Below, piece after piece: positions 12,929-54,113 of a DNA stretch of 58,241 nucleotides (positions are counted from its first letter, which is position 1; every line of letters begins with the position of its first letter). The notes beneath the pieces are model-generated. The model did no database searches. It saw only the letters and a list, made by a program, of their open reading frames with translations, and was not told where the DNA came from. Source of the DNA: a virus; IMG/VR virus record IMGVR_UViG_3300046167_000364, positions 1 through 58,241 of that record; one strand, given 5' to 3'. The position numbers were made by a program, and so were the translations under genes.

Positions 12929-15583
12929 ATGAGTTCTGTTGAAGAGTATCTCAAGCTACTTTCTGAAGAAGAAACGCCAGAGTTATCTGAGCCTAAAACC
13001 GGCTCTGCCGTTGATGACTACTTTAGTTATATAGAGCAAAAGCGAATAGCTCGAAATGTCGGAAATGTAAGGGCGGCGGCTCAGGGCCTTACCTTTGGTT
13101 TTGCTGATGAGCTTGAAGCGGCGGCATCTGACGAGGAGTATGAGATTGCTCTTGCAAAAATACGGAAAGAGCAACAAAGGTATAAAGAAATGAACCCTGT
13201 TTCTGCGATTGGGTTTGAATTAGCAGGCAGTGTTCCTACTGCTGTTGCAGGTGCGGCTGGCCTTAGTCGTTTAGGCGTTACGTCTGCGGCTAAACAAGGA
13301 GCTTTAGAAGGTGCGGCTTATGGCACTGGCTCTGGAGAAAACTTTGAAGAGCGTGCCGCTGGCGCTGTTGTTGGTGGCTTAAGCGGCTTAGCGTTAGGAA
13401 AGCTTATTGATGTAGCGACAACGCCATCGTCCACTGGGGGTTTAAGAACTGAAGGACATGATCTTGCTGATAACTCCTTAAAGATTGAGCCTCAACTAGC
13501 AAACAAAGACATTGAAGCGGCAAGAGCTAACGAAGTATTTGATGAGGTAGACAACCCTCAGTACACCCAAAAGCCTTTGTCAGAAGCAAAGACCGCTGGC
13601 GAGCTTTGGTCTGGTTTAACTGGCGCTGTTAAGAACTTTTACAACGACAAGGTAACTGGTGTATCAGATGAGTTGATGCGTGTTGTTAGCCCGCAAGTAG
13701 GCGCTAGATTTCAACGTGCTGATGAAGCGGCTCTTGCCACAACAAACAAAGAGCTTGATGGGCTTTCAGAGCGCCTTGTTCCTGTTGTTAAGATTATTAA
13801 CGATAGTGAAAGAGCTAAGGGTGTAATACTTGATTATGCCGCAGGCAAGCTAGGTAAAACACGCAAAGACTCTCTTGTTAAATTACGTAAAGAGCTAGGT
13901 AACGATCTCAACACAGAACACATGAACGTGCTTGAGGCGTACCTTAACTATAGTTATAAGAAAAACGCTCAACTAAACAAAAAAGTATTTGGTGCCGCAT
14001 TCCCAGACGAACTTACCTATCTACATACGCGCAACATTTCTAGATACAAAGAGCTAAAAGATGAAGGCATGACAGATGCTGAAATCGAAAAGATGTTTGA
14101 AGATCCGGGTATGGAGCGGCGTACTCGTGGCTCTTATCTTAGTAAAGACTCCAATGCCCCGCGCCCAGAAGATTACGACAATCCAGTTATTTCGGATATG
14201 CAACGAATCTTTAAGATGGAGCGACTTGCGCAGGTGCAAGATAAGTTTGGCGTAAAGATTGACGATGTACTATCTGCTAAAAGAGCAACTCTTTCGGAGC
14301 GTGCGTTAGTTGCCTTAACTCCGCAGGAGTTTTTAGATTCTTTATTTTATACGCTAACCAATAAAGGCATCAGCAATGATGGCGCTCAGTATGCTGTAAA
14401 CAAAATAACTGACACCATTATGGGTCAGGCAAAGACGCCTCACCCAGCAATACAAGCCGCAAACTCTCTGGCCTATGCAACCACGCTTGCCGGCCCTATG
14501 TCTGCAATCCTTAACATTGCCGATATTCCTTTGTTAGGCGCTAAGTATGGCGGTCGTGCCGCACTTGAAGGTTTAAAGGTTCTTAATCCCTTTAAGAAAA
14601 TTCCTAGCCCAGACCTTAAAAAGATGGGCTTAAGCAATCAAACCTTTGGTGAATTCGTTAACAAAACAAATGAGCTTGCATCAAACAATCAAGGGTTTAT
14701 GGCAAGCACTGCACATCAAATGCGTAAAGGCGCTGACTTTTTAATGAAAGGCTCAGGCTTTGCGGCTATGGATCAAGTAGGCAAAAAAGGTGTTATGCGT
14801 GGCGTACTTCGTAGTGCAGTTGATGACGCCAAGATAGGAAATCTGTCTGAAAACTGGGGCTTTTACTTTAATAAAACCGAACTTGATTTGATTGGGGATC
14901 AGTTAAACAAGCATGGTATGGACTGGTCTAAGTACACAGGCGATGGAGCAAAACTTGTAGAAGAGCTTTTGTTTGCCGGGCTAGGTCAACAGCAGTTAAT
15001 TAGTGCGGCTGGTCGTCCTGCGGCATGGGCTAGAAACCCCAACCTTCGACCGCTGTGGGCATTGCGTGGCTTCGTAGTTAAACAGCAGGCCCTCGCGTTG
15101 CGGGAAGTCATGGGCAACATCAAAGCTGGCAAACCAGAAAAGGCGGCTCAGTTCCTTGGTCGCTACGCGGCGTATGGCGCAGGTGGGTATGCGGTAATTA
15201 ATGAAGGCCGACAATTTATCTTTGGTGACGGCGAAGCTTCATTTAATGGGCTAGTTCGAGGATACGGTGACGCCTGGGCAAGTTTGTTAACAGCCAATAC
15301 GCTTGGACTTAATGACTATCAATACGGTCAAATCAAGCAGAACGGGCTACTTTATACTTTTGCTCAGGGAATGATGCCGATAGCTATTGATCGTCCTTTG
15401 GATATTGGAAAGACAGTTGTTGAAGTGCTAGATAAAGAGCGACCACCACAGGCAATCGCTCAAGAATTACCAATCTTTACTCAGCCTATACGAACCGCAG
15501 AAAGAGCGGCGGGAGCTGTAGGGGCAACCACTACTCAAGGTCTTTTGCAAGAAGCACTGCGCAAACGCAATCCAGAACCTTAA
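12929..15583 (+). CDS. Large ejection / internal virion protein (unit A allele)
   Basis: 884 aa. The N-terminal 60 residues are acidic, followed by a hydrophobic Gly/Ala-rich stretch (about 90-165: SAIGFELAGSVPTAVAGAAGLSR, GAVVGGLSGLALGKL) that could cross a membrane, and a long helical C-terminal region. Unit B's 858-aa protein (49209) has the same plan with remote similarity, for example around ANSLAYATTLAGPMSAILNI versus LANPMNAILNIAEG. Large last-tail-gene proteins like this form the ejection conduit in short-tailed phages. No lytic transglycosylase motif was seen. Its stop overlaps the convergent NinG-like gene by four bases. Confidence 0.6.
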   Translation: MSSVEEYLKLLSEEETPELSEPKTGSAVDDYFSYIEQKRIARNVGNVRAAAQGLTFGFADELEAAASDEEYEIALAKIRKEQQRYKEMNPVSAIGFELAGSVPTAVAGAAGLSRLGVTSAAKQGALEGAAYGTGSGENFEERAAGAVVGGLSGLALGKLIDVATTPSSTGGLRTEGHDLADNSLKIEPQLANKDIEAARANEVFDEVDNPQYTQKPLSEAKTAGELWSGLTGAVKNFYNDKVTGVSDELMRVVSPQVGARFQRADEAALATTNKELDGLSERLVPVVKIINDSERAKGVILDYAAGKLGKTRKDSLVKLRKELGNDLNTEHMNVLEAYLNYSYKKNAQLNKKVFGAAFPDELTYLHTRNISRYKELKDEGMTDAEIEKMFEDPGMERRTRGSYLSKDSNAPRPEDYDNPVISDMQRIFKMERLAQVQDKFGVKIDDVLSAKRATLSERALVALTPQEFLDSLFYTLTNKGISNDGAQYAVNKITDTIMGQAKTPHPAIQAANSLAYATTLAGPMSAILNIADIPLLGAKYGGRAALEGLKVLNPFKKIPSPDLKKMGLSNQTFGEFVNKTNELASNNQGFMASTAHQMRKGADFLMKGSGFAAMDQVGKKGVMRGVLRSAVDDAKIGNLSENWGFYFNKTELDLIGDQLNKHGMDWSKYTGDGAKLVEELLFAGLGQQQLISAAGRPAAWARNPNLRPLWALRGFVVKQQALALREVMGNIKAGKPEKAAQFLGRYAAYGAGGYAVINEGRQFIFGDGEASFNGLVRGYGDAWASLLTANTLGLNDYQYGQIKQNGLLYTFAQGMMPIAIDRPLDIGKTVVEVLDKERPPQAIAQELPIFTQPIRTAERAAGAVGATTTQGLLQEALRKRNPEP

Positions 15584-16005
15584 TCCCAACTAACAAACTC
15601 TAGCCAACCTCTTACCCCTGCCGCCCTGTCATTCTCCATACGGGCGGCTTCTGCTTTGTAATGCTTGGCTATCTCTTTGACTTCCTTGTGTGCTCGCTTG
15701 GCTAGGTCAACATCCTCTGCCTTTTCTCTAATTAACTCAAGGGCACCTTCGCCGTAGGTGTCAATATAATGACGCACGAAGTAGTCCGGGCTACTACCAA
15801 ATCGTTGGTGGCATCCGTAGCAGTGAGCAAATGCGTTCATCTTGTCGTACCGAATGCCCTTCTTAGCGCGGCTAAAATAATGAGAGCAGTGCAGTCCCGT
15901 GCTATTTGATTCGTATTGTGTGCCACAGCCTTGGCACTTGAACTCATTGCGTATACGAATGCACCTACTGAACCAATGATCCGCCGCTGTTCTTTTTAAC
16001 TTCAT
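15580..16005 (-). CDS. ninG: NinG-like recombination protein
   Basis: 141 aa, about two-thirds the length of lambda NinG (Rap). It has zinc-binding pairs CQGCGTQ and CYGCH with HCSHYFSR between, an HNH-type arrangement typical of NinG. The N-terminus KLKRTAADHWFSRCIRIRN and the motif DYFVRHYIDTYGEGAL fit the family. NinG promotes recombination and may act on branched DNA. It follows NinB by a four-base overlap, as in lambdoid nin regions. Unit B copy at 51752. Confidence 0.75.
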   Translation of the reverse strand: MKLKRTAADHWFSRCIRIRNEFKCQGCGTQYESNSTGLHCSHYFSRAKKGIRYDKMNAFAHCYGCHQRFGSSPDYFVRHYIDTYGEGALELIREKAEDVDLAKRAHKEVKEIAKHYKAEAARMENDRAAGVRGWLEFVSWD

Positions 16006-16427
16006 TGCAATTGATCCTTTAGTTGTTGAGGGAATGGTACATATACCTGTTTATGCTCTGAGAGCCACCTGATTAGCACCTCAGCGGCCTCCGAGAGTTG
16101 GATAGGGGTTAGCTTAGCTGTTGACGATTTGCCGTGCATGGCCTTTATAACAGGCTTGTACAAGGTCTCTTTAACTAGCACCTCGGTAAAAGGTATTTCA
16201 AAGTTATCACTAAACGGGTGTCGCACGTAATGGCCTGCGTCGTTCAGTTCGGTAGCTACCTGCCTAAACCATAGGTGCATTGCATTGTTCTGTCGATCAC
16301 TGCGCGTAGTGTCTTTGATGTAGTACAGGATTGTTTTGCCTTCCTGCCATTGATCGAGAATGAAGTTAATAAAGAAGTTAGCTTTGTCTTTGCTGTCTAC
16401 TAGCCAGCGGTGTGATGGGTCACTCAT
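16002..16427 (-). CDS. ninB: NinB-like recombination mediator
   Basis: 141 aa. The motif TTRSDRQNNAMHLWFRQVATELNDAG corresponds to the RSxxQNxxLW region of NinB (lambda Orf), and the C-terminal EAAEVLIRWLSEH matches the family's end. Lambda Orf binds single-stranded DNA and SSB and can replace RecFOR. It overlaps NinG downstream and the 117-aa gene upstream, so the three are co-transcribed leftward. Unit B copy at 52331. Confidence 0.75.
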   Translation of the reverse strand: MSDPSHRWLVDSKDKANFFINFILDQWQEGKTILYYIKDTTRSDRQNNAMHLWFRQVATELNDAGHYVRHPFSDNFEIPFTEVLVKETLYKPVIKAMHGKSSTAKLTPIQLSEAAEVLIRWLSEHKQVYVPFPQQLKDQLQ

Positions 16428-16773
16428 AGGTATACTCGTAATATTCTGGCGCTAATTCAGGAAGGTTTGTTGCACCAGTATCGTCTGACACTTGATGTCT
16501 TGTACGGAAAAAACCCTCGCACTCGGGGTACATCCGCATAAATCTTCGAGAATAAAAGGCTCGATAATTATTGTTTAACTTAAAGCTATGCTTCCCATCA
16601 CCACCTGCATCAATTTCCCACCGTATTCTTTCAAACACTGCATTTACGCTATATGTTTTATAGCCACGATTTATCATTTCTTTAGAAAATCTAACAAACA
16701 AGTCCCAAACTTCTGGATGTTCCATGTGAAACTTTCCTACTTGCTCCTGCATTTCCTCTCGTCTTGTTTTCAT
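16420..16773 (-). CDS. Conserved phage protein of unknown function
   Basis: 117 aa. The core IRWEIDAGGDGKHSFKLNNNYRAFYSRRFM and FFRTRHQVSDD are recognisable from many phages and prophages, usually near recombination genes, but no function is known. It overlaps the NinB start by eight bases. Unit B lacks it and has a 51-aa gene nearby instead. RBS AGGAG lies upstream at about 16780. Confidence 0.75.
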   Translation of the reverse strand: MKTRREEMQEQVGKFHMEHPEVWDLFVRFSKEMINRGYKTYSVNAVFERIRWEIDAGGDGKHSFKLNNNYRAFYSRRFMRMYPECEGFFRTRHQVSDDTGATNLPELAPEYYEYTYE

Positions 16774-16960
16774 CTTGCTCTCCTTTGGTATTCAGTTTGC
16801 CCAGTTTGCCCAGTTTGCCCAGCCTGCCTCTAATGCCCTAGTTTTACCCCCCTACTTGTCGCGCCAAGCCTGCTTCCGGCGACGCGACGGGCACGCTAAA
16901 CGTGGGCATCAGGGGCATTCTGGAGGTTTTGGGGCATTCTGGGCATTCTGGGCATTCTAA
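16774..16960 (+). repeat. Candidate origin: two 9-bp repeat arrays around an inverted repeat (unit A)
   Basis: Left array: CAGTTTGCC at 16793, 16802 and 16811, plus variant CAGCCTGCC at 16820. Right array: GGGCATTCT at 16913, 16932, 16941 and 16950. Between them is an inverted repeat, GTCGCG at 16858-16863 with CGCGAC at 16883-16888. The array lies just after the ATPase gene on the leftward strand. Unit B keeps both arrays with an unrelated inverted repeat between (52757-52916). Iterons near a replication gene suggest an origin or initiator-binding site. Confidence 0.6.
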
Positions 16961-18100
16961 TTACATAGGTATCCAGCGGTAATACTTCTTGCCGTGTGCA
17001 CCTTTGCGTTCTAGCTTAAGGTTGTTGCCCTTGAGTAGCTCCATGCAACTGCGAAGCATTTTCTTTGTACATCCATTTGGGTTTACTTCGCTGTCGTTTA
17101 GCATGTCAAACAGATCTGTCTGCGAGTACAGCTTGTGAGCCTTCATAGCACTGCTTAGGAATATGTATTCGTCTTCGTATTTAGCAATGGCCTTTCCAAT
17201 CCTGATCTGCGCAGACTGCTTAGCCTTCATGTCGCTGATGTCATCGGGGCTCATAAACTCCACAGAGTCTACGGATTCTTCGTAGCCCACTGTCTCACTT
17301 GTTTGCTTGTACTTGAACCCACCCTCGAAGCTGATCTGACTTCTATCCTTTTCATTGATTACTAACAACTCTTGGTGGAATGCAAACTTATCATTGAGGG
17401 GATCAAGTCCGAACATGTTGTCGACATCAGCCTTGAGATCTCCAACGCCTTCAAAAATGAGTCGTCCATCCATGCTTCGATGCTTGTTGCAATGCCCCAA
17501 CAATACGACTGTGCCGCCTGCCGCCGCAAACTCTCTGAATACATGAAGCACATCCCGCATCTCACCCTTGTTCATTACACCCACAAACTTTTTGAGCGTG
17601 TCACAAATAACAATTTTGCCGTCCGCCTCGCCTTCTTCACGTATAGCATTGAGCAGATCTAGTGCTTGATTGGTGTTCCTAAGATATGGATCGTTGCTGT
17701 TTGCCAGTGTAACCATTGTCATTCCGTGGCGTTTACCTAGCTTGGCTTTTTGCAAAGCGCCCCTGGCCCCATCATCCTCGTTGAAATAGATAACATCGGA
17801 GCCTTTAATAAGGTTGTTGCGGATAGATTGGAATAGGTTGCCCAGAATCCATACGGTCTTACCAGCTCCTGACGGAGCGTATACAAGCGTTACAGTTCCG
17901 GTGGTAATCATGCCGGGGATAACGTCTCTTTCTTTAGCCAGACGCTCCTCAAGCTCTTCTATGCGGTCATTGAGTGCCGCATTGCGTAATCTATCTAAAG
18001 CAGATCTCCCATTCTGCCCTGCCATAATTGGTTTTAGCATTGATGTTGGTGCTGTTATTTGGCTCTGCTGATCGCAGTATACTGACCAGTCATCAGTCAT
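16961..18100 (-). CDS. RecA-fold ATPase, RepA-like helicase
   Basis: 379 aa. Walker A APSGAGKT lies near residue 73, a Walker B-like strand KIVICDTLKKF near 150, and a further RecA-fold strand TVVLLGHCNKH near 200, matching hexameric RepA/DnaB-type or RecA-like phage ATPases. The C-terminal about 90 residues look like a winged helix (SQTDLFDMLNDSEVNPNGCTKKMLRSCMELL). Probable role: replicative helicase or recombination ATPase. It starts a leftward operon with NinB and NinG. Unit B copy 52917. Confidence 0.75.
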   Translation of the reverse strand: MTDDWSVYCDQQSQITAPTSMLKPIMAGQNGRSALDRLRNAALNDRIEELEERLAKERDVIPGMITTGTVTLVYAPSGAGKTVWILGNLFQSIRNNLIKGSDVIYFNEDDGARGALQKAKLGKRHGMTMVTLANSNDPYLRNTNQALDLLNAIREEGEADGKIVICDTLKKFVGVMNKGEMRDVLHVFREFAAAGGTVVLLGHCNKHRSMDGRLIFEGVGDLKADVDNMFGLDPLNDKFAFHQELLVINEKDRSQISFEGGFKYKQTSETVGYEESVDSVEFMSPDDISDMKAKQSAQIRIGKAIAKYEDEYIFLSSAMKAHKLYSQTDLFDMLNDSEVNPNGCTKKMLRSCMELLKGNNLKLERKGAHGKKYYRWIPM

Positions 18101-18246: not shown

Positions 18247-18639
18247 ATGAGCGAGTTAATTCAAGAGCTTTTAGAAGTTCAACGAGAGTTATCTCATGCA
18301 ACAGCTGACGCAGTAAACCCTCACTTCAAAAGTCAGTATGTAAAGTTTGAAGACCTTTGGGACTATGCCAAAGAAGCTTTGAACAGTCACAACATAATGA
18401 TTCAGCAGTTAAGTCACGAATGTGAAGTCGGAGCCTGTATTGAGACGGTACTGCATGGTCATGGCGCATCCATGTCAACTGGCAAGATGATTGTCCGAGC
18501 AGATAAACCAACAGCGCAGGCATTTGGCAGTGCAATTACTTATGCAAAGCGATACAGCTTATCAATGGCGCTAGGCATCGGAGCTGACAAAGACGATGAC
18601 GCCAACAATGCAACATCCGGTGCAAAACGAGGATGGTAA
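18247..18639 (+). CDS. erf: ERF-family single-strand annealing protein
   Basis: 130 aa, shorter than P22 Erf. The ERF signature is clear: the N-terminal helix LIQELLEVQRELSHATADA, NPHFKSQYVKFEDLWDYAKEALNSHNI, and the motif AFGSAITYAKRYSLSMALGI. These proteins anneal complementary strands and support recombination-dependent replication or circularisation of phage DNA. First gene of a rightward operon; its stop sits inside the next gene's ATGGTAA start. The usual ERF C-terminal SSB-binding tail is absent and may be supplied by the downstream gene ending DDIPW. Unit B replaces it with a different annealing-type protein (54278). Confidence 0.8.
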   Translation: MSELIQELLEVQRELSHATADAVNPHFKSQYVKFEDLWDYAKEALNSHNIMIQQLSHECEVGACIETVLHGHGASMSTGKMIVRADKPTAQAFGSAITYAKRYSLSMALGIGADKDDDANNATSGAKRGW

Positions 18640-21144: not shown

Positions 21145-21978
21145 TTATGCGGCTTGGTTGTCATACTTTCGCATGAGTTCAAATTGCGACATGCAATACT
21201 CGAATGCTTTCTGCGCATCCTTTGCCGCTGTCGTAATGTATCGAGGATCAGACTTGATGGCCTTCTGCCATGACTTGATATAGCTGGCGTGTTGGCTGAT
21301 GTCATAGGTCACACCCAGCTGAGCGCATAGAAAGATAGATCCTAACTCTGCAACTAACTCTTCTTTGGCATAGTCTTCATGTCCAAACGCACCAGTCAGA
21401 TCACGATCTAGTCGTTTGCTGTGACCGGTAGAGTGAATGCACTCGTGATAAAAGGTGGATTGATAAGCATCGTCAGACTCAAATTGCCCTGGCATAGGCA
21501 TCCGAATCTGGTCAGCTGAAGGTGAGTAACACGGGTTGTGGTGCTCTGCATTACTCACTTTGACTTGCAGTGCGTCGGCAATCTCGTTTGGATTGTCGAG
21601 CCTGCTTTCTCGTATTGGTATCTCAGGTAACTCGATACCTGTTTGGTCAATGTTGAATAAGTTGTATACCTTTGCAAAAGCAAACTCCTTTTCAGGATCT
21701 TTCTTGTCCTTAGCTTTGCTAAAGAAGATTGCAGGTGTTGCCTTCTGACCTTTAACACTACCGCCAAGCTGTTGCACTTGGTTCCATGTAAGCCAGTAGG
21801 GTTTAGTGTAGCCATATTTCCAGCTAGCAATCATTGTCATTAGCTGGTTCGTGCCATTGTATGGGCGCTTAGTCACCCAGTTTTGGTGGAGGCAAGACTG
21901 TGACTCCCATGTCTTGCGCCATGTAGTCTCGTCTGCCATAGCAGACTCAACGAGTTCAACGATTCGATCATATTTCAT
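21145..21978 (-). CDS. ardC: ArdC-like antirestriction protein / zincin
   Basis: 277 aa from ATG 21978 (AAGGAAC upstream; ATG 22017 is poorly placed). The N-terminal half has the ArdC single-strand-DNA-binding-type signature (RPYNGTNQLMTMIASWKYGYTKPYWLTWNQVQQLGGSVKGQKAT and the I-F-F-S-K step). The C-terminal half has a metallopeptidase site HECIHSTGH with downstream EELVAELGS. ArdC proteins protect incoming DNA from type I and some type II restriction. Here it sits mid-way in the leftward early operon, fitting early expression. No copy was found in the sequenced part of unit B. Confidence 0.85.
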   Translation of the reverse strand: MKYDRIVELVESAMADETTWRKTWESQSCLHQNWVTKRPYNGTNQLMTMIASWKYGYTKPYWLTWNQVQQLGGSVKGQKATPAIFFSKAKDKKDPEKEFAFAKVYNLFNIDQTGIELPEIPIRESRLDNPNEIADALQVKVSNAEHHNPCYSPSADQIRMPMPGQFESDDAYQSTFYHECIHSTGHSKRLDRDLTGAFGHEDYAKEELVAELGSIFLCAQLGVTYDISQHASYIKSWQKAIKSDPRYITTAAKDAQKAFEYCMSQFELMRKYDNQAA

Positions 21979-22019
21979 AACAGTTCCTTTTTGGTTTTGG
22001 TTAGTAAACTTTATCAAAG

Positions 22020-24540: not shown

Positions 24541-24766
24541 AACCACTTCAAGAGGGTACTTCACAGACTCACACTCATTGGCACCACTAATCGTATATCC
24601 GGTTATATATCGAATGCACCTGTATGGTTTAGCTTGGCATATATCAAATCTGCCAGGTCTTTCAGGTTAAATAGTGGGATGATTGATACCGGGGGGGGTA
24701 ACTTGACGTCGGTACAATTAATAGTTCCCACCCACATACAAAAAAAGCGGATTTTGAAAGTGCAAC

Positions 24767-24830
24767 GGGGGGTCTAAACTTGGGCATTACGGGCATTCTG
24801 ACCTTTTCCGGGCATTCTGGGCATTCTAAA
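24767..24830 (+). repeat. Second GGGCATTCT array
   Basis: Six G, then GGGCATTAC, GGGCATTCT, a ten-base gap and GGGCATTCT twice. The layout matches the array next to the ATPase gene in unit B (G6, GGGCATTA, GGCATTCT, then tandem units at 52846-52918) and the one in unit A at 16904-16958. The element therefore occurs twice per genome unit. Confidence 0.7.
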
Positions 24831-24929
24831 CAGGGTTTTTGCGGTTGCTTTAACTTCCTGATTACCAAAGGAATAATGAAGAGGTTTTTATTCCGTTAAG
24901 TTATAAGGTAGGATTTATATTGAAGGGTG

Positions 24930-24958
24930 TTGATTAGCACTCAGGACATATATAGGAT
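24930..24958 (+). promoter_or_regulatory. Possible promoter for head genes
   Basis: TTGATT, exactly 17 bases, TAGGAT; four of six matches in each box. About 30 bases upstream of a GGAGGG tract. Moderate match only. Confidence 0.4.
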
Positions 24959-24996
24959 AGGGAGGGTGGGTTGGTTAAATAGCCAACTTAAAATTT

Positions 24997-25452
24997 ATGG
25001 CATCAGAGTACGTTAAACAGCGCAAAGCTGAGATCAAGAAGAGAAAGCAGGAGTCTGGCAGGCCATCCAAGAAGGATTTGGCGGCTAACTCTCCCGGTGG
25101 TAGGGGCAAGCCCGGTCGACCGAAGGGTGATGCTACGATAATCAATGAGTATAAGTCGCGTATGCTGGCTTCTCCGAAGTCCAAGCGTGTACTTGATACT
25201 ATCTTTGATGCGGCATTAGACCATGACCATAAGAATCAGGCGGCGGCATGGAAGTTAGTAATGGATAGAATCCTGCCTGTGGCGGCATTTGAAAAAGATG
25301 TCGTGCAAAATGGCGGGAAATCTGCTATTCAGATCAACATTACGGGTGTGGGTGCCGCTGAGGTTAAGGATGTTGGCGTGGACTCCAGCGAATTCGATCC
25401 CAACACTATCCAACCTACGGTGATTAACGGGGACAACGGTGAAATACTTTAG
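24997..25452 (+). CDS. Terminase small subunit
   Basis: 151 aa. The N-terminus is very basic (VKQRKAEIKKRKQESGRPSKKDLA, GRGKPGRPKGD) with helical segments after it (LDTIFDAALDHDHKNQAAAWKLVMDRILP), a pattern of small terminase subunits that bind the pac or cos site. It is the first gene of the head module, two genes before TerL. The ATG lacks a well-spaced RBS; GGAGGG is about 30 bases upstream, with a GTTGG/CCAAC hairpin between that could bring them together. Confidence 0.65.
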   Translation: MASEYVKQRKAEIKKRKQESGRPSKKDLAANSPGGRGKPGRPKGDATIINEYKSRMLASPKSKRVLDTIFDAALDHDHKNQAAAWKLVMDRILPVAAFEKDVVQNGGKSAIQINITGVGAAEVKDVGVDSSEFDPNTIQPTVINGDNGEIL

Positions 25453-26142: not shown

Positions 26143-27396
26143 ATGAGTGATCTCAATATAGAGCTACTGCCTTGGCAACAAGAAGTCTGGGCAGACGATA
26201 CCCGATTTAAAATTGTAGCGGCTGGCAGACGTACGGGTAAGTCCCGCCTCGCCGCATGGATGTTGATAGTCAATGCTTTGCAGGCCGATAGGGGACATGT
26301 ATTCTACGTTGCACCAACCCAGGGACAGGCGCGGGACATCATGTGGCAAACTCTTTTGGAGTTGGGTCATCCTGTTATCGCTGGTAGTCACATCAATAAT
26401 CTCCAAATCAAACTGGTCAATGGAGCAACCATTAGCCTCAAGGGCGCCGATAGACCAGAGACGATGCGGGGTGTTAGCCTCAAGTTCTTAGTTCTCGATG
26501 AATACGCGGATATGAAGCCTGATGTATTCGAGCAAATCCTGAGACCGGCACTTGCCGACCAAAAGGGATGTGCAATGTTCATTGGGACGCCAATGGGAAG
26601 GAACCACTTTTACGAATTGTATAAGTATGCGGAGCTGGGTGATGATGAAACTTACGCGGCCTACCATTTTACTTCTTACGATAATCCTCTGCTTGATAAA
26701 GATGAAATCAATACTGCTAAAAGGAGCATGTCTAGTTATGCATTCCGTCAAGAATTTATGGCGAGCTTTGAAGCTCGTGGTTCAGAAATGTTTAAAGAAG
26801 ATTGGGTTCGGGTCGAAGCAGATCGAGAGCCCCGTGGAGACTACTACATCGCCATCGACCTCGCCGGCTTTGAAGAAGTCAACAAAAAGCGCACCAAAAA
26901 CGCGAAGCTCGACGAAACCGCGATCGCCGTCGTCGACGTCTCGGAAGAAGGCTGGTACGTCGAAAACATCATCTACGGCAGGTGGACGCTCGACGAAACG
27001 GCCATCAAAATCTTCCAAGCCGTAAGAGATTACAGGCCAGTATCCGTGGGTATCGAGAGGGGCATAGCCAAGCAAGCCGTTATGTCTCCTCTTGTTGACC
27101 TACAAAAGAAGTACGGTACGTTTTTCCGGGTAGAAGAACTAACCCACGGCAACAAAAAGAAAATAGATAGGGTCATGTGGGCATTGCAGGGCCGCTTTGA
27201 GAATGGGTATATCACCCTAAACAAAGGCGAATGGAACTCAAGATTCCTTGACCAACTGTTCCAATTCCCTGATCCTTTGACCCATGATGACTTAATAGAC
27301 GCATTGGCTTACATTGACCAACTAGCCAAAGTGGCTTATGACTATGAATACGAAATAGACGACCACGACATCTTAGACATAGTGGCGGGATACTAA
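26143..27396 (+). CDS. terL: Terminase large subunit
   Basis: 417 aa. ATPase: Walker A AAGRRTGKSR near residue 27, Walker B FLVLDEYADM near 120, coupling motif FIGTPMGRNHFYELY. Nuclease domain: first acidic centre IAIDLAGFEE near 230, last one HDDLIDALAYI near 395. It powers DNA packaging through the portal and cuts the concatemer. Codons for about residues 230-295 (26,830-27,020) are strikingly C-ended (ATC, GAC, GTC, GCC) unlike the rest, which may mark a recombined patch. Confidence 0.92.
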   Translation: MSDLNIELLPWQQEVWADDTRFKIVAAGRRTGKSRLAAWMLIVNALQADRGHVFYVAPTQGQARDIMWQTLLELGHPVIAGSHINNLQIKLVNGATISLKGADRPETMRGVSLKFLVLDEYADMKPDVFEQILRPALADQKGCAMFIGTPMGRNHFYELYKYAELGDDETYAAYHFTSYDNPLLDKDEINTAKRSMSSYAFRQEFMASFEARGSEMFKEDWVRVEADREPRGDYYIAIDLAGFEEVNKKRTKNAKLDETAIAVVDVSEEGWYVENIIYGRWTLDETAIKIFQAVRDYRPVSVGIERGIAKQAVMSPLVDLQKKYGTFFRVEELTHGNKKKIDRVMWALQGRFENGYITLNKGEWNSRFLDQLFQFPDPLTHDDLIDALAYIDQLAKVAYDYEYEIDDHDILDIVAGY

Positions 27397-27397
27397 T

Positions 27398-29422
27398 ATG
27401 AGCGACCTGTACGAACAAGATCCTTTAATGATCCAAGAATCCTTAGAGGATTGGGTTATAACAAAGTGCGAGGATTGGCGTGATTACTATGAATCTAACT
27501 ATGAAGACCGCTTTGAAGAATACTATCGGCTATGGCGTGGGATTTGGGATCCCGCTGACAGTGAGCGCCGGAGTGAGCGTAGCCGTATTATCTCTCCTGC
27601 TTTACAACAGGCTGTTGAATCTAATGTTGCTGAGTTAGAAGAAGCGACGTTTGGGCGGGGTAAATGGTTTGATGTCTCTGACAACCTTGGGGACACCTCA
27701 AAAGAAGACGTTCTTTTCCTGAGAAACAAGCTTACCGAAGACTTTGAAGACTGCATGATTCGTAAGTCTGTTGCGGAATGCCTTATCAATGCCGCCGTAT
27801 TTGGTACAGGCATTGGCGAAATCGTCATTGAAGAAATGAAAGAAATGTCTCCTGCCACTCAACCTATTATGGATGGTGACCTTCAGGCAGTAGGCGTTAA
27901 TATTCAAGACAGAGTAAAAGTTAAGCTCAGACCTGTGCTTCCCCAGAACTTCTTAATTGACCCTGTCGCTACAAGTGTTGATGAGGCATTAGGTGTTTGT
28001 ATTGATGAGTTTGTTAGCCGTCACCAAGTAGAGCTTCTTCAAGAGCAAGGCGTTTATCGTGATGAAATACTAGGCAGTGCCGCACCTGACACTGACCTTG
28101 AGCCCGATCAAGACATTACGATCTATAACGACGACAAAATTCGCCTTACTAAATACTACGGCCTTGTTCCTCGTGATCTTTTAAACAACGCAATGAGTGA
28201 TGAAAACGACTTTGGCGATGGCGAAGATACAAAGTACGTTGAGGCAATCGTTGTTATTGCTAACGGCGGAATACTTCTTAAAGCAGAAGCCAATCCTTAT
28301 ATGATGCAGGATCGTCCGGTCGTAGCATTCCCGTGGGATGTAGTGCCTGGGCGGTTCTGGGGAAGAGGCGTTTGCGAGAAAGGCTACAACTCACAGAAAG
28401 CACTCGATACAGAGCTTCGGGCTAGAATTGACGCACTAAGCTTGACTATCCACCCAATGATGGCCTTGGATGCAACCAGACTGCCTAGAGGTGCTAAACC
28501 AGAAATACGTCCCGGTAAGATGATTCTGACTAACGGAGATCCTAGAGAGGTGCTCCAGCCGTTTAACTTTGGTCAGGTTAATCAGATTACTTTTGCGCAA
28601 GCTGGTGCGTTACAGCAGATGGTTCAGCAAGCTACAGGCGCAGTGGACTCAGCAGGTATTGCAGGGCAGGTTAACGGTGAATCTACAGCGGCAGGAATTA
28701 GCATGTCGTTGGGTGCGCTGATTAAGCGCCACAAGCGCACACTAATTAACTTCCAACAGTCTTTCTTGATTCCGTTTGTTAAGAAGGCCGCACATAGGTA
28801 TATGCAATTTGATCCCGAATCTTACCCCGTTGCAGATTACAAGTTTAACGCTAGTAGCACTCTGGGTATTATTGCTCGTGAGTACGAAGTTACTCAGCTA
28901 GTGCAGTTGTTGCAGACGATGGGCAAAGACTCTCCTTTGTACACAACGCTTATTCAATCGGTAGTAGACAACATGAACTTGTCTAACCGCGAGGAACTTA
29001 TTGCGGCGATGCAACAGGCGATGCAACCTAATCCGCAGGCACAGCAAATGCAGATGCAAGCACAGCAGTTGCAGATGCAGTTCCAGCAATCTCAAACAGC
29101 GGCACTGTCTGCGCAGGCACAAGAGTCTGCGGCTAGAGCGCAAAAGCTTTCGGCTGAAGCGGCAGTGGTTCCGCAAGAGCTTGAGATTGACAGGATCAAT
29201 GCTGTTACCCGAAACTTGCGTGAAGGCGATCAAGACGACAAAGAGTTTGAGCGTCGTTTAAAAGTTGCTGACACACTACTTAAAGAGAAACAAATCCAAG
29301 GAAAAGAGAATGCTAACCGACAGAGAACTCCAAATGATCTTCCAGCGGTTCCAAAGCCAAATGGAGCCACTCCAGCGCCAAGTGCAGGAACTCCAAGCCA
29401 AGGTGGAGGCTTTAACCAATGA
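27398..29422 (+). CDS. Portal protein
   Basis: 674 aa, directly after TerL. Contains typical portal segments: RSRIISPALQQAVESNVAELEEATFG, VFGTGIGEIVIEEM, VVAFPWDVVPGRFWGRGVCEKGYNSQKALD and a helical barrel end with a Gln-rich stretch (AQQMQMQAQQLQMQFQQSQ). Forms the dodecameric DNA gate at one capsid vertex. The C-terminal end is overprinted by a small gene (29310-29501). Confidence 0.85.
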   Translation: MSDLYEQDPLMIQESLEDWVITKCEDWRDYYESNYEDRFEEYYRLWRGIWDPADSERRSERSRIISPALQQAVESNVAELEEATFGRGKWFDVSDNLGDTSKEDVLFLRNKLTEDFEDCMIRKSVAECLINAAVFGTGIGEIVIEEMKEMSPATQPIMDGDLQAVGVNIQDRVKVKLRPVLPQNFLIDPVATSVDEALGVCIDEFVSRHQVELLQEQGVYRDEILGSAAPDTDLEPDQDITIYNDDKIRLTKYYGLVPRDLLNNAMSDENDFGDGEDTKYVEAIVVIANGGILLKAEANPYMMQDRPVVAFPWDVVPGRFWGRGVCEKGYNSQKALDTELRARIDALSLTIHPMMALDATRLPRGAKPEIRPGKMILTNGDPREVLQPFNFGQVNQITFAQAGALQQMVQQATGAVDSAGIAGQVNGESTAAGISMSLGALIKRHKRTLINFQQSFLIPFVKKAAHRYMQFDPESYPVADYKFNASSTLGIIAREYEVTQLVQLLQTMGKDSPLYTTLIQSVVDNMNLSNREELIAAMQQAMQPNPQAQQMQMQAQQLQMQFQQSQTAALSAQAQESAARAQKLSAEAAVVPQELEIDRINAVTRNLREGDQDDKEFERRLKVADTLLKEKQIQGKENANRQRTPNDLPAVPKPNGATPAPSAGTPSQGGGFNQ

Positions 29423-49216: not shown

Positions 49217-51755
49217 ATATGATGACCTGTTTAATGAAGACTACTCAACTCTTTTTGATGAAGACACTGAGTACAATGCGTTTCGATCTGCGACTACGGG
49301 GTTTATTGAGTCAGCCATAGGTGCTGGAGACGAGTTAGATGCAACTATACGCTTACTATCTGGTGAGGCACAAACCTGGGGGCAAGCAATAGGTCAGTCT
49401 AGAGCTGAACTCAAAGCGTTTGAAGACGCAAACCCTAACGCATCTATGGTTATTAATACGATGGGGTTTGGTGCAGGTTTGTTTATCCCCGGCGCTGGTA
49501 TAGCCAAGATTGCTCAAGCAGGAACCAAGTTAGATAGGGCGCTCAAAGTTGGCGGTCTGGGTGCGGCTGAAGGTGCTGTCTACGGATTCCTCAGCGGGGA
49601 AGGGGAAGGCAGGGCAACCAGTGCTGGCATTGGCGCTGTTGCTGGTGGCTCTCTTGGAGGATTGTCTGGCGCATATTTAACAAAGAATACAGATGAGATC
49701 AATAAAGCCACTCGCCTGCTGGATGCTCAGACCTATAAAGGCAAGGGTAGCTATATAGGCGGTGAAGAAGGCTTCCGCAATGTAGGTAGAGCAAAAGAAT
49801 CCTCAAGACCGGGAGTTACTTACGATACCAGTACGGCTAGTCGTCAGGTTCAGGATATCAAAGATGATGCAATTATTGTCGAACAGCCTGCCGGTGAAAG
49901 CGGAATTGTAGGTAATGTATTCCTTAGCACCAAAGATTGGATTGCCAAGAACGTGGGTGTTAGAGCGGCAAGACTGGCAGAAGACGCAGAGATAATGACG
50001 CGGCACGATCAAAGAGAGATTGATGAGATCTTTGATACGGAGTTTCTTACTGCCGCAGAGTTGTTCGATAACAATCAAGGCTTGAAGTCTTTGGCCTTAC
50101 GAATGAACAAGTCGATCAAGGAAGACAGGCGTGTTTCGTGGGAAAACTTTACTTCCGCCGCCAAAACAACAGAAGAGAAAGTTATTATCAGAAAGCTCGA
50201 AGAGCAGGTAAAGACTCTTCAGGGGCTGGACTTTGTTAAGCAGGGAGACATTGATTACTTCCCCACGAAAGCTATCGAAAAGATAGGCACAAAGGAAGCA
50301 AGGCCGGACGCTTACGACAACCCCATCAGGGCGCTAAAAGAGTATGCGGAAGACGTATCCGCATCAAGAGCGTTGGCCGCTAGGTTTGATATTGATACAA
50401 AGGATCTGCGCGCACCAAAGTCTGATATAGGCGAGAGCCGTCTTAACGTAGTTATCGAGGCGATTGAGAAAGAAGCAAAGAAGCAAGGAGCCTCTACGGA
50501 AGTAGCGGCAAACCTTGGTAACGGCTTGAGGTCTCAGTTTGTTGCCTCAAAGAAAGGCGGCAATACAGTGGGCGCGGTTGCTAGAAGAGTTACTTCATCG
50601 GCACTTCTTGCAAACCCAATGAACGCGATACTAAACATAGCCGAAGGTGTGACTGCCCCGATCTATCAGAATGGGGTCAAGGCATGGATGAAGACCGTTC
50701 CTCGCGCTGTGCTTTCTACGCTCAACTCAGAGCTTGGCGTTAAAAGCAAAGGCTGGATTTCAAACAAGGAGCTTGGGCTAGACAAAGACTTCATGGGTGA
50801 GATTGCCAACGCTGGAAAAAGAGCAATGGACGATACGGCAGAAGCCGCAAGTCTTACAAAGCTATTCCAAAAGGCAGTTCCCGGAATTGATGTCCTTAAC
50901 AAGACGCTATACAAATACTCTGGGGTTCAAACTGTAAACAGGATGGGCCAAGAGTTATTAAGCAACTCAGCAGTTCAACGAGGCATGGATCTTGCTAGCG
51001 ACGGCTCTGAGAAAGCTCTAGCCAAACTCAGAAAGCATGACGGCATGAGGGGGCTTACTGAGAGCGAGTTCAAGTCAACAGTACGCGCCCTGAAAGATAA
51101 AGACCTATCTAACCCTTACATAATTAACTTTGCTGGGGCGGCACTAAACAAGTGGCAACCAGTAAGCGCAAGCACAATGCCCAAGGCTTTCCATGACAAC
51201 CCTAACGGTCGCATGGCTTACAGTATGCTTTCTTACATGAACAAGCAGATGAACAGCTTGAGAAATGATGTTGGCCTTAACATCCTGAGAGCGCAAGAGA
51301 AGGGCCTTAACAGCAAGGAAGGCGCAGAGGCAATCAAGCTAGCCATGATTAACTCTGCTAAGTACGCGGCAATATTTGGCGTAGTTGCTGGCGTCTGGGA
51401 TGACTACAGGAAGACGCTTGACCTAACTAACGACAAAACACTTGAAAAGCTTTTGACCCCAGAGGGGGTTAGCTCCTCTCTTATGAATCAGCTAGCCTCA
51501 AACATGAGTAGCGGAATCCTAAACATAAGGGCTGAAGAGTACGGCGGCCAGCCAATAGAGCCGATACCTGCTCCGATATCTGCTGGGTTTAGGCTTGGCA
51601 GTGGCGTTGTTACCGCTGGAGAAAGAATGTTAACAGGGCAGAAGGAGCCACTGGCTCCGCTGTTGAGGGCAGGCCAAACCTATTTCCCTGGCCTTGCTAA
51701 CATCGACAGAGTTATGCGGATGACTGCTGGCGAAAGACTGTTAACTGAAGACTAA
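49209..51755 (+). CDS. Large ejection / internal virion protein (unit B allele)
   Basis: 848 aa from ATG 49209, which overlaps the previous stop; the ATG at 49179 lies inside that gene. Acidic N-terminus (MAKYDDLFNEDYSTLFDEDTEYNAFRS), then a hydrophobic Gly/Ala-rich stretch (GFGAGLFIPGAGIAKIAQAG, GIGAVAGGSLGGLSGAYL), then a long helical region. Remote relative of 12929-15583 with the same architecture. Probable DNA-ejection conduit protein. Confidence 0.6.
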   Translation: MAKYDDLFNEDYSTLFDEDTEYNAFRSATTGFIESAIGAGDELDATIRLLSGEAQTWGQAIGQSRAELKAFEDANPNASMVINTMGFGAGLFIPGAGIAKIAQAGTKLDRALKVGGLGAAEGAVYGFLSGEGEGRATSAGIGAVAGGSLGGLSGAYLTKNTDEINKATRLLDAQTYKGKGSYIGGEEGFRNVGRAKESSRPGVTYDTSTASRQVQDIKDDAIIVEQPAGESGIVGNVFLSTKDWIAKNVGVRAARLAEDAEIMTRHDQREIDEIFDTEFLTAAELFDNNQGLKSLALRMNKSIKEDRRVSWENFTSAAKTTEEKVIIRKLEEQVKTLQGLDFVKQGDIDYFPTKAIEKIGTKEARPDAYDNPIRALKEYAEDVSASRALAARFDIDTKDLRAPKSDIGESRLNVVIEAIEKEAKKQGASTEVAANLGNGLRSQFVASKKGGNTVGAVARRVTSSALLANPMNAILNIAEGVTAPIYQNGVKAWMKTVPRAVLSTLNSELGVKSKGWISNKELGLDKDFMGEIANAGKRAMDDTAEAASLTKLFQKAVPGIDVLNKTLYKYSGVQTVNRMGQELLSNSAVQRGMDLASDGSEKALAKLRKHDGMRGLTESEFKSTVRALKDKDLSNPYIINFAGAALNKWQPVSASTMPKAFHDNPNGRMAYSMLSYMNKQMNSLRNDVGLNILRAQEKGLNSKEGAEAIKLAMINSAKYAAIFGVVAGVWDDYRKTLDLTNDKTLEKLLTPEGVSSSLMNQLASNMSSGILNIRAEEYGGQPIEPIPAPISAGFRLGSGVVTAGERMLTGQKEPLAPLLRAGQTYFPGLANIDRVMRMTAGERLLTED

Positions 51756-52177
51756 TCCCAGCTAACAAACTCTAGCCACCCTGCTACACCCGAGGCTCGA
51801 TCGTTCTCCATACGTTCGGCTTCGGTTTTATAGTGTTTAGCGATTAGCTTCTGCTCCTTGTTCATCCTCTTACCGAGGTTTATATCCTCTGCTTTTTCCC
51901 TAATTAACTCCAAGGCACCTTCGCCATAGGTGTCAATATAATGACGCACGAAGTAATCAGGGTTACTGCCGTACTTCTGGTGACAGCCGTAGCAGTGAGC
52001 AAAAGCATTCAGGGCATCGTACCGGATACCCTTCTTTGATCGACTGAAGTAGTGGGAGCAGTGCAGTCCACTACTGTTTGACTCGTACTGTGAGCCACAC
52101 CCTTGGCACTTGAAGTCGTTACGTAGCCTTACGCACCTGCTGAACCAGTGATCTGCCGCTGTTCTTTTAAGCTTCAT
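51752..52177 (-). CDS. ninG: NinG-like recombination protein (unit B)
   Basis: 141 aa, strongly similar to 15580-16005 (CQGCGSQ, LHCSHYFSRSKKGIRYD, CYGCHQKYG). Overlaps the convergent ejection gene by four bases. Here a 51-aa gene separates it from NinB. Confidence 0.75.
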   Translation of the reverse strand: MKLKRTAADHWFSRCVRLRNDFKCQGCGSQYESNSSGLHCSHYFSRSKKGIRYDALNAFAHCYGCHQKYGSNPDYFVRHYIDTYGEGALELIREKAEDINLGKRMNKEQKLIAKHYKTEAERMENDRASGVAGWLEFVSWD

Positions 52178-52178
52178 C

Positions 52179-52334
52179 CTATTCTCCTTTGCTGTATCTA
52201 ATTATTTCTAACGGATCTTGGTCTGCATCCTTAAGAAACTTAATGCTTAGGTCTGGCATGATAGCCACGTCTCGCCCCGACCTTTCTGCCATTGTCACTG
52301 CTGATTGAATGGCTATCTCTACGTCGTCCTTCAT
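52179..52334 (-). CDS. Small protein between NinB and NinG
   Basis: 51 aa: MKDDVEIAIQSAVTMAERS then GRDVAIMPDLSIKFLKD and ADQDPLEIIRYSKGE. ATG overlaps the NinB stop (ATGA), and it carries the RBS GGAGAATAGG for NinG downstream. Absent in unit A, where NinB and NinG overlap directly. Likely a real inserted gene; function unknown. Confidence 0.65.
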   Translation of the reverse strand: MKDDVEIAIQSAVTMAERSGRDVAIMPDLSIKFLKDADQDPLEIIRYSKGE

Positions 52335-52756
52335 TTCAATTGATCCTTCAGTTGTTGAGGGAACGGTACATAGACTCCCTTATGCTCTGAGAGCCACCTA
52401 ATTAGCACCTCAGCGGCCTCCGAGAGCTGGGTAGGGGTTAGCTTAGCTGTTGACGACTTGCTGTGCATGGCCCCTATAACAGGCTTGTACAGCGTCTCTT
52501 TAACTAACACCTCAGTAAAAGGTATTTCTAGCTTGTCGCTAAATGGGTGCCGTACGTAATAGCCTGCGTCATTCAGCTCGTTAGCTATCTGCCTGAACCA
52601 TAGGTGCATGGCATTGTTCTGCCTGTCACTTCGCGTGGTGTCCTTGATTGTGTACAGGATGTGCTTGCCACTCTCATACTGATCTTTCACGAAGCTAATA
52701 AAGAAATCTAGCTTATCTTTCTTATCGACTATCCAGCGATGGGATGGATCGGTCAT
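52331..52756 (-). CDS. ninB: NinB-like recombination mediator (unit B)
   Basis: 141 aa from ATG 52756 (GAAGGAGATTTAT upstream). A longer open frame reaches back into the 9-bp repeats as GKLGKLGKL, but that is repeat sequence read in frame. Core TTRSDRQNNAMHLWFRQIANELNDAG is shared with 16002-16427. Confidence 0.75.
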   Translation of the reverse strand: MTDPSHRWIVDKKDKLDFFISFVKDQYESGKHILYTIKDTTRSDRQNNAMHLWFRQIANELNDAGYYVRHPFSDKLEIPFTEVLVKETLYKPVIGAMHSKSSTAKLTPTQLSEAAEVLIRWLSEHKGVYVPFPQQLKDQLK

Positions 52757-52916
52757 ATAAATCTCCTTCAGTTTGCCCAGTTTGCCCAGTTTGCCCTGTG
52801 TGCCCAAGGTTTAGGGGGCCCCTTTTACCTAAAACACGTCAAGGTGGGGGGTATATCATGGGCATTAGTGGCATTCTGGGCATTCTGAATCGGGCATTCT
52901 GGGCATTCTGGGCATT
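52757..52916 (+). repeat. Candidate origin: two 9-bp repeat arrays around an inverted repeat (unit B)
   Basis: CAGTTTGCC at 52769, 52778 and 52787 plus variant CTGTGTGCC; GGCATTCT/GGGCATTCT at 52870, 52878, 52892, 52901 and 52910. Between them lies TTTAGG (52810) with CCTAAA (52828) and an inner GGGGCCCC, unrelated in sequence to unit A's inverted repeat. A six-G run precedes the right array. Array order and position next to the ATPase gene are conserved. Confidence 0.6.
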
Positions 52917-54113
52917 CTACATAGGATTCCATCGGTAAAACTTCTTCCCATGAGCCCCCCTTCGCTCCAGTGTGAGGTTGTTCCCTTTCAATAAGTCGAT
53001 ACAGGCGCGCAATGTTTTTCTTGTACAGCCGTTGGGGTTTACCTCGTGGTCGCTGAGTAGGTCGAACAACTCCGATTGTGCCCAAGCCTTGTTACTTTTC
53101 ATCACACTGCTGAGTAGGATGTACTCATCTTCGTACTTAGCATTAGCCTTACTTATATTAATTTGAGCCTTTTGCTTACCCTTTAACTCGCTGATATCGT
53201 CGGTACTCATAAACTCAACAGAGTCTACGGACTCTTCGTACTGAACAACTGCGCTAGTTTGCTTGTACTTGAAGCCACCCTCGAAGCTGATCTGGCTACG
53301 ATCCTTTTCATTGATTACTAGAAGTTCTTGATAGGCGGCGAACTTATCGTTCACTGGGTCAAGGCCAAACATATTGTCAACGTCTGACTTCAAATCCCCT
53401 ACGCCTTCGTAGATCAATCGACCGTCCATGCTTCGGTGCTTGTTGCAGTGGCCCAATAAGATGACCGTGCCACCTGCCGCCGCGAACTCACGAAAGACGT
53501 GCAGTACGTCCCGCATATCGCCCTTGTTTAACACTGGCGCAAACTTCTTAAGGGTGTCACATATCACGATCTTGCCATTGGCCTCGCCCTCTATGCGTAT
53601 CTGATCGAGCATACGAAGCGCGTCGTCTGTCTTGCGTAGGTTAGGGTCAACAGAGTTAGCCAAGGTAATCATGTTCATGCCGTGACGCTTGCCCATCTTC
53701 GCCTTCTGAAGCACACCCTTGGCACCGTCATCCTCGTTGAAGTAGATGACATCGGAGCCGCGTATCAGGTTGTTGCGAATAGATTGGAATAGGTTGCCCA
53801 GTATCCACACTGTCTTACCTGCGCCACTGGGTGCGTAGACTAGAGTGACTGTGCCGGTTGTAATCATGCCTGGAATCACGTCCCGCTCCTGTGCGAGGCG
53901 CTCTTCTAGCTCTTCGATCCTTCCGTTTACTGAGGCAGACATCAGCCTTGATAAAGCTGAAGATCCGTTTTGCTTTGTGAAATATGGGTTGCCGGGGAAG
54001 GTTTCATTGATCGCCCTTTCCTTTTCTGCCCATGCTGAGGGTTGCTTTATCTGACTTGGTGGTACTGAGATTTTATTCTGCTCTTGAACGTACCATTCCC
54101 AATCATCCATCAT
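52917..54113 (-). CDS. RecA-fold ATPase, RepA-like helicase (unit B)
   Basis: 398 aa, with a longer N-terminus than unit A. Walker A APSGAGKT, Walker B-like KIVICDTLKKF, GTVILLGHCNKH all kept, and C-terminal winged-helix-like end with SELFDLLSDHEVNPNGCTRK. Clear homologue of 16961-18100. First leftward gene from the divergent promoter region. Confidence 0.75.
   Translation of the reverse strand: MMDDWEWYVQEQNKISVPPSQIKQPSAWAEKERAINETFPGNPYFTKQNGSSALSRLMSASVNGRIEELEERLAQERDVIPGMITTGTVTLVYAPSGAGKTVWILGNLFQSIRNNLIRGSDVIYFNEDDGAKGVLQKAKMGKRHGMNMITLANSVDPNLRKTDDALRMLDQIRIEGEANGKIVICDTLKKFAPVLNKGDMRDVLHVFREFAAAGGTVILLGHCNKHRSMDGRLIYEGVGDLKSDVDNMFGLDPVNDKFAAYQELLVINEKDRSQISFEGGFKYKQTSAVVQYEESVDSVEFMSTDDISELKGKQKAQINISKANAKYEDEYILLSSVMKSNKAWAQSELFDLLSDHEVNPNGCTRKTLRACIDLLKGNNLTLERRGAHGKKFYRWNPM

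Follow-up and report, generated by a model that had tools for sequence, protein, structure and literature searches.

The window analyzed here (the whole 58,241-nucleotide stretch of IMG/VR virus record IMGVR_UViG_3300046167_000364) carries two related units, A and B. In each, a minus-strand ATPase gene is followed by opposed arrays of 9-bp units and then by recombination genes. The features are as follows.

15580 to 16005, minus strand: NinG/Rap-like nuclease, unit A (phrog_5034, E = 7e-26)
16002 to 16427, minus strand: NinB/Orf-like recombination mediator, unit A (phrog_72), downstream of the element
16420 to 16773, minus strand: small gene of unknown function (phrog_13625, E = 3e-25), between element A and the NinB gene
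16793 to 16829, minus strand: distal iteron array A, AA type, GGGCAAACT three times plus one degenerate unit
16840 to 16903, no strand: central imperfect palindrome A, with GTTTA/TAAAAC ends, a GGGGGG box and a GTCGCG/CGCGAC stem
16913 to 16958, minus strand: ATPase-proximal iteron array A, TT type, AGAATGCCC four times (GGGCATTCT on the plus strand)
16961 to 18100, minus strand: ATPase of unit A, 379 amino acids, with a RecA/DnaB/KaiC-fold core (Pfam AAA_25) and a C-terminal winged helix
16964 to 17248, minus strand: C-terminal winged helix, residues 285 to 379 (AF2 model)
18247 to 18639, plus strand: Erf-type single-strand annealing protein (PF04404, E = 9e-21; phrog_2324)
51752 to 52177: NinG/Rap-like nuclease, unit B
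52331 to 52756: NinB/Orf-like recombination mediator, unit B (phrog_72)
52769 to 52804, minus strand: distal iteron array B, GGGCAAACT three times plus one degenerate unit
52811 to 52857, no strand: central imperfect palindrome B, with a GTTTAGGGGGC box
52878 to 52918, minus strand: ATPase-proximal iteron array B, AGAATGCCC four times, the last unit overlapping the ATPase stop codon
52917 to 54113, minus strand: ATPase of unit B, 398 amino acids

On the minus strand, which is the direction of the genes, unit A runs from the ATPase stop codon through AGAATGCCC (three copies plus one), the imperfect palindrome, a degenerate unit and three copies of GGGCAAACT; this distal array directly precedes the ribosome-binding site of the next gene. 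As read in the window, the GGGCATTCT copies of unit A lie at 16913-16921, 16932-16940, 16941-16949 and 16950-16958, and the distal array is CAGTTTGCC three times with a degenerate copy, together spanning 16793-16828. Unit B has the identical order of parts around a different center, with GGGCATTCT at 52878-52886, 52892-52900, 52901-52909 and 52910-52918 and three copies of CAGTTTGCC at 52769-52795. An earlier note had described paired 9-bp arrays flanking an inverted repeat beside the ATPase gene, with both arrays kept in unit B around an inverted repeat of different sequence. We located all of this as claimed.

The arrays are real and far beyond chance. At a threshold of at least 15/18 identity, the arrays 3′ of the two ATPase genes (site 1 of units A and B) were the only period-9 arrays in the window, and 20 first-order Markov shuffles of the window yielded none. 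Exact copies of GGGCA(AA/TT)CT numbered 19, against 1.1 expected by chance, and 17 of the 19 fell in site 1 of unit A, site 1 of unit B and a third site. The two 9-mers are the same motif, GGGCA-WW-CT, facing opposite ways, with TT in one arm and AA in the other; the reverse complement of AGTTTGCCC is GGGCAAACT, and the opposite arm is GGGCATTCT. The proposed "two classes of binding site" hence reduce to one motif in opposite orientations with, we infer, one reader.

The phrog_72 matches of the NinB/Orf-like genes had E values of 1.4e-7 and 2.2e-10. The Erf gene is divergent from the ATPase gene, and the small gene at 16420 to 16773 is absent from unit B. Erf, NinB and NinG occur in the order in which they are found downstream of the replication genes in lambda-like phages. 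In the early genes that we profiled, those of the window and of a relative, L250, we recognized no primase, polymerase or other helicase, and the ATPase was the only replication-type protein. The early region also encodes an ArdC-like anti-restriction protein with a zincin metallopeptidase domain (window, 21145-22017; L250, 7939-8988). A small protein of L250 (12100-12381) ends in DDIPW, resembling the acidic tail of single-strand binding proteins; it had no Pfam match.

The two ATPase genes lie 35,956 bp apart, and, at ~36 kb per phage genome, the contig spans about 1.6 genome lengths, with a diverged repeated part. We rejected duplication within one genome, since the two ATPases are only 79% identical in protein sequence. 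Given this divergence, the contig is probably chimeric, combining two related phages that co-occur, by way of an assembly join, a recombinant concatemer or tandem prophages. The lineage is a widespread one of uncultured marine phages (>100 contigs), and we found no cultured relative of it. The portal protein (window, 27398-29422) has about 24% identity to those of the distant HMO-2011-type podoviruses. The genome collection offered one 3-kb fragment in a gammaproteobacterial metagenome-assembled genome, which was too weak to assign a host.

We examined 80 IMG/VR loci chosen by ATPase protein similarity alone (67 to 100% identity). Opposed period-9 arrays lay 0 to 600 bp 3′ of the ATPase stop codon in all 80, although at 6 loci the automatic threshold found only the right arm and the left arm was seen by eye. 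A search from the most distant relative recovered a distant clade in which 35/35 loci had 3+3 units around GTTTTAGGGGGC...GCCCCC. Absence of the arrays beside homologous ATPases, which the earlier note had named as refuting its reading, was thus seen at none of these 80 and 35 loci. The gene after the element varies (NinB-like, Dcm-like methylase and others), and some genomes have an inserted small gene that separates the ATPase gene from the element, which is retained. In the reverse direction, the exact GGGCATTCT doublet was found in 64 stretches, nearly all of them beside the ATPase gene; those elsewhere were second sites, except for one chance match in GC-rich coding DNA (L131). The core pattern GTTTAGGGGGCGGGTT alone was unspecific, as it also matches unrelated coding DNA. 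Two distant AAA_25 relatives, Campylobacter phage CAM-P21 and Caudoviricetes ctuI7215, had no such arrays in the stretches checked, so the element seems confined to the family of the window ATPase. Among 50,697 annotated phage records, none encoded a relative of the ATPase at an E value of ≤1e-5; the best match at E values up to 10 was a Campylobacter phage protein with 25% identity.

The ATPase winged helix and iteron type

The unit A ATPase matched Pfam AAA_25 with an E value of 1.7e-10, above the curated cutoff. Foldseek matches of the ATPase model were KaiC, RecA, Rad51-like proteins, DnaB and Twinkle, and viral matches were annotated as AAA domain, replicative helicase or primase-helicase. 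The modeled fold fits recombinases too; the Walker B and His motifs (ICDTLKKF and LGHCNK) presumably point to the RepA/DnaB side rather than to RecA, and the protein is a putative helicase. The core model is moderate (mean pLDDT, 68.6; residues 204 to 260 mostly <50), and the C-terminal domain has a pLDDT of ~90. This domain is modeled as a winged helix with helices at 309-318, 327-333 and 346-356 and strands at 324-326, 361-366 and 371-376. The recognition helix, 346-356, is encoded at about 17033-17065, with Arg350 at 17051-17053. A single-sequence fold of the domain (pLDDT, 54) was too poor to use; the helices and wing strands recurred in it. Sequence searches of the PDB found no relative of the whole ATPase and, for the winged helix, a best match at E = 0.61 to an unrelated protein; no known DNA-binding family matched the winged helix by sequence either.

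At 18 loci the iterons of both arms have GGG[G/T/A]A instead of GGGCA. Residue 350 was leucine at 18/18 of these loci and arginine at the 64/64 others, an association that was found after the arrays had been seen. By unit, position 4 was C in 245/252 units of Arg350 genomes, several of the remaining units being doubtful, and was G, T or A in 75/75 units of Leu350 genomes. The four of 379 alignment columns that best tracked iteron type (350, 331, 324 and 348) all lie in the winged helix, and two of them, 350 and 324, were the only perfect predictors. On this covariation, the ATPase C-terminal domain most likely reads the 9-bp iterons by direct binding. The natural reading is that Arg350 would contact the G opposite the position-4 C, and that loss of the arginine would relax the position.

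Leu350 genomes with G-type iterons do not form a single group in the tree of core codons, which needs at least six changes of type, forced by supported branches; a single Leu/G clade was rejected on the core tree (AU test, P = 1.8e-6). In the winged-helix tree, the Leu type is one clade (support, 100/99). In 6/6 independent pairs, winged-helix type agreed with iteron type. Identity profiles trace the conflict between the two trees to exchange of a ~400-bp cassette. Unit B and L040, for instance, are 90 to 100% identical through the ATPase core, 62 to 78% identical in the winged helix and element, and again 90 to 100% identical in NinB. The pairs L015/L052, L022/L046 and L013/L040 have values of 90 to 100% in the core, 60 to 80% in the winged helix and element, and 90 to 100% in the next gene; L016/L028 has a similar profile that is less clean because of an inserted gene. 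As judged from these comparisons, winged helix and iterons move together, repeatedly, as a cassette of ~400 bp. Since the winged helix adjoins site 1, the block exchange could partly reflect linkage.

A second site beside the terminase genes

The window has a further set of iterons ~7 kb from site 1, which the earlier note had overlooked.

24781 to 24827, minus strand: site 2, AGAATGCCC twice, a spacer, AGAATGCCC, GTAATGCCC, then GTTTAGACCCCCC
24997 to 25452, plus strand: small gene before the large terminase, adjoining site 2
26143 to 27396: large terminase

Site 2 is one-armed, with half of a center. It sits in an AT-richer noncoding region (24552-24996) between divergent early and terminase genes. 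By its position, the small gene at 24997 to 25452 probably encodes the small terminase subunit; it had no profile match. In relatives, site 2 lies about 5 to 8 kb 5′ of the ATPase gene, past a strongly conserved CCCTCCCTATCCTATATATA marker and before the terminase. Ten other genomes have the CCCTCCCTATCCTATATATA marker and no site 2 iterons, which leaves site 1 as the universal site. In the window (24552-24996) and in L244-L273, CCCTCCCTATCCTATATATA and CTTTTTTTGTATCTGGGTGGGAACTA are kept even where iterons are absent. The noncoding region before the terminase is possibly a packaging site, a promoter pair or an unwinding region.

In 11/11 genomes with both sites in hand, site 2 had the type of the genome's own site 1. 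Seven were of C type (unit A of the window, listed as WA, and L006, L009, L019, L021, L022 and L025), and four were of G type (L030, L033, L035 and L039), of which L030, L033 and L039 are one lineage, so that independent support for the G type comes from two lineages. Agreement at this unlinked site argues against linkage, to the extent that two Leu-type lineages can.

The same covariation would be expected from any DNA-binding reader, including the ATPase or an unseen regulator acting at operators that control the nin genes from site 1 and the early and terminase genes from site 2. Site 1 is closely followed by a ribosome-binding site, and site 2 lies between divergent genes, as such operators might. 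We consider this arrangement unlikely, however: the element stays while the downstream gene varies from NinB to a Dcm-like methylase and others, the window's site 1 has no sigma-70-like promoter, half of the genomes lack site 2, and 3+3 opposed units around a palindrome with an AAA_25-type ATPase as reader would be unusual for a repressor. The position of site 2 next to the terminase genes, together with the recombination genes around site 1 and the RecA and Rad51 folds among the structural matches, could instead mean that the RecA-fold ATPase cooperates with Erf, NinB and NinG in starting recombination-dependent replication or marks DNA for terminase. We think such a recombination or packaging site quite improbable, as the universal site 1 is far from the terminase, iteron type tracks the ATPase winged helix and not the terminase, and the AAA_25 match and our reading of the motifs favor the RepA/DnaB side over RecA.

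The central palindrome and its orientation

The center of the element is GC-rich with boxes of 5 or 6 G residues, and the element as a whole has a GC content of 57% and 51% versus ~46%. In unit A, the palindrome stem pairs 16858-16865 with 16878-16888. Compared with shuffled sequences, elements folded well (median z = -4.7 for 45 nonredundant relatives, DNA energies); z was -4.4 for L003, which is nearly identical to unit A, and -3.2 for unit B. The two arms differ in their central dinucleotide: 45 distinct elements had TT|AA and 5 had AA|TT, and none of the 50 that could be classified had the same dinucleotide in both arms. The element therefore stays an imperfect palindrome, with 2-by-2 mismatches every 9 bp. 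Instability of perfect palindromes may be one reason for the mismatched arms.

Relative to the arrays, the TTTAGGGGGC box can point either way among relatives, and the GTTTAGGGGGC box of unit B is opposite to that of most relatives. Five relatives (L051, L058, L063, L067 and L069) carry the entire element flipped with respect to the ATPase gene: the AA array comes first, the center is reversed and the TT array is last. L075 and L081 have enlarged elements of ~300 bp 3′ of the ATPase gene, that of L075 with a third array between the usual two. The centers of L008, L004 and L010 have gained extra hairpins (GGGAAAAGCGGCCTCTTTTCCC and relatives), as have those of L017, L075 and L081; a small mobile hairpin is a possible source.

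Good predicted folding would also be expected if arms and center formed a long hairpin in the transcript, a terminator or processing site between the ATPase and nin genes, and L019 and L021 have a terminator-like G-C stem followed by T5. The freedom of orientation of box and element is more in keeping with a DNA site than with an RNA signal. The arms are kept mismatched in 50/50 classifiable elements, the site 1 copy in the window has no terminator, the element matches no Rfam family, and base 4 tracks a DNA-binding helix. We therefore regard an RNA element as very improbable. The earlier suggestion that selection acts on repeat identity and on the presence of a hairpin, not on the whole sequence, needs revision in part. 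The motif and its opposed layout are kept; the motif changes in step with the ATPase winged helix, and what is kept at the center is an imperfect palindrome with a G-run box in either orientation.

A candidate replication origin and known systems

The plan of a replication gene followed by its origin is already known. In SaPIs and PICIs, iterons lie directly 3′ of the helicase gene and are read by the C-terminal domain of its product; they always come as two sets flanking a center, and each Rep is specific for its own iterons (PMC7581432, PMC6092414). The phage element likewise has iterons immediately 3′ of the candidate initiator gene (80/80 homologues and the distant clade) and two iteron sets around a central region. 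However, the SaPI/PICI center is AT-rich and is the melting site, whereas the phage center is GC-rich; SaPI/PICI Reps are AAA+ (DUF927/D5/MCM-like) satellite proteins, whereas here a RecA-fold AAA_25 ATPase is encoded by a ~36-kb phage; and the phage has a distal one-armed site. We looked for the AT-rich center and the AAA+ Rep and found neither; hence, we did not class the element as a PICI origin. The crenarchaeal plasmid pRN1 and phage BIP-1 have a winged-helix replication protein whose gene is followed directly by a stem-loop origin of ~100 nt (PMC4234260, where P4 is compared with pRN1). Unlike the phage element, in which iterons would carry specificity, pRN1 has no iterons, and it uses a prim-pol/SF3 helicase (PMC4234260).

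A likeness to satellite phage P4 lies in the same iterons at two sites kilobases apart (site 2 being present in 11 of our genomes and absent from 10 others). In P4, a C-terminal winged helix on the alpha helicase reads short iterons at ori and crr. Alpha, however, is a TOPRIM primase plus helicase, and the P4 gene, sites and iterons are unrelated to the phage element. AAA_25 is the family to which the RSF1010 RepA helicase belongs, and the RSF1010 oriV also combines iterons with inverted repeats (PMC4234260). RSF1010 has a separate iteron-binding RepC and its own primase, RepB′, whereas here the reader would be fused to the ATPase. Profiling of early genes in the window and in L250 found neither a RepC-like nor a RepB′-like gene. 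In lambda, the DNA-binding domain of O and the iterons are adjacent and are exchanged as a unit between phages, and nin genes follow. Lambda O is not an ATPase and has its iterons inside the O gene, whereas the phage reader is an ATPase with iterons 3′ of the gene.

Iterons 3′ of the gene, as in SaPIs and PICIs, a winged-helix candidate initiator with a 3′ stem-loop, as in pRN1, and the gene context together make an origin the most likely function. We consider it probable that the element is the phage replication origin and the ATPase its initiator. The earlier proposal of a candidate origin thus stands as the best reading, without its two classes of site. The suggested GC-skew check gave no support: cumulative skew turns at the arrays, but at 4-fold-degenerate sites the skew tracks the coding strand to either side, also in the rightward Erf gene that lies beyond the element. 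It is thus uninformative, and there was no positional switch. The GC-rich center, unlike typical AT-rich unwinding regions, counts against an origin.

In the proposed mechanism, the C-terminal winged helix would bind the iterons in the two opposed arrays, with base 4 read by residue 350, and would thereby place ATPase multimers face to face across the central palindrome, which may open or extrude. The RecA-fold ring would then act as, or recruit, the replicative helicase. Host primase and polymerase would have to complete replication, since neither is encoded in the genome to the extent that it was profiled. Site 2 would be a second binding site for the ATPase, perhaps an auxiliary origin or a control site.

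At the level of sequence, our data support the array anatomy, its obligatory linkage to the ATPase gene, switching of specificity together with the winged helix, the type match of site 2 and cassette exchange. Our search of the accessible literature did not find a RecA-fold reader, a GC-rich palindromic center, a distal half-site or cassette exchange combined with a residue-base correspondence. We tentatively raise the possibility of a new initiator class, in which a RecA/DnaB-fold ATPase with an origin-reading winged helix would load itself as the helicase at a GC-rich palindromic origin; the recombining cassette would define compatibility groups, and a distal half-site would have to switch along.

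An uncultured marine phage lineage thereby gains a candidate origin and initiator, with a base-to-residue prediction, that Arg350 reads the C at position 4. The relatives also provide a natural experiment, since close relatives have exchanged the specificity of the putative origin at least six times. Such repeated swaps suggest selection on origin compatibility, possibly against cross-replication by co-infecting relatives or satellites.
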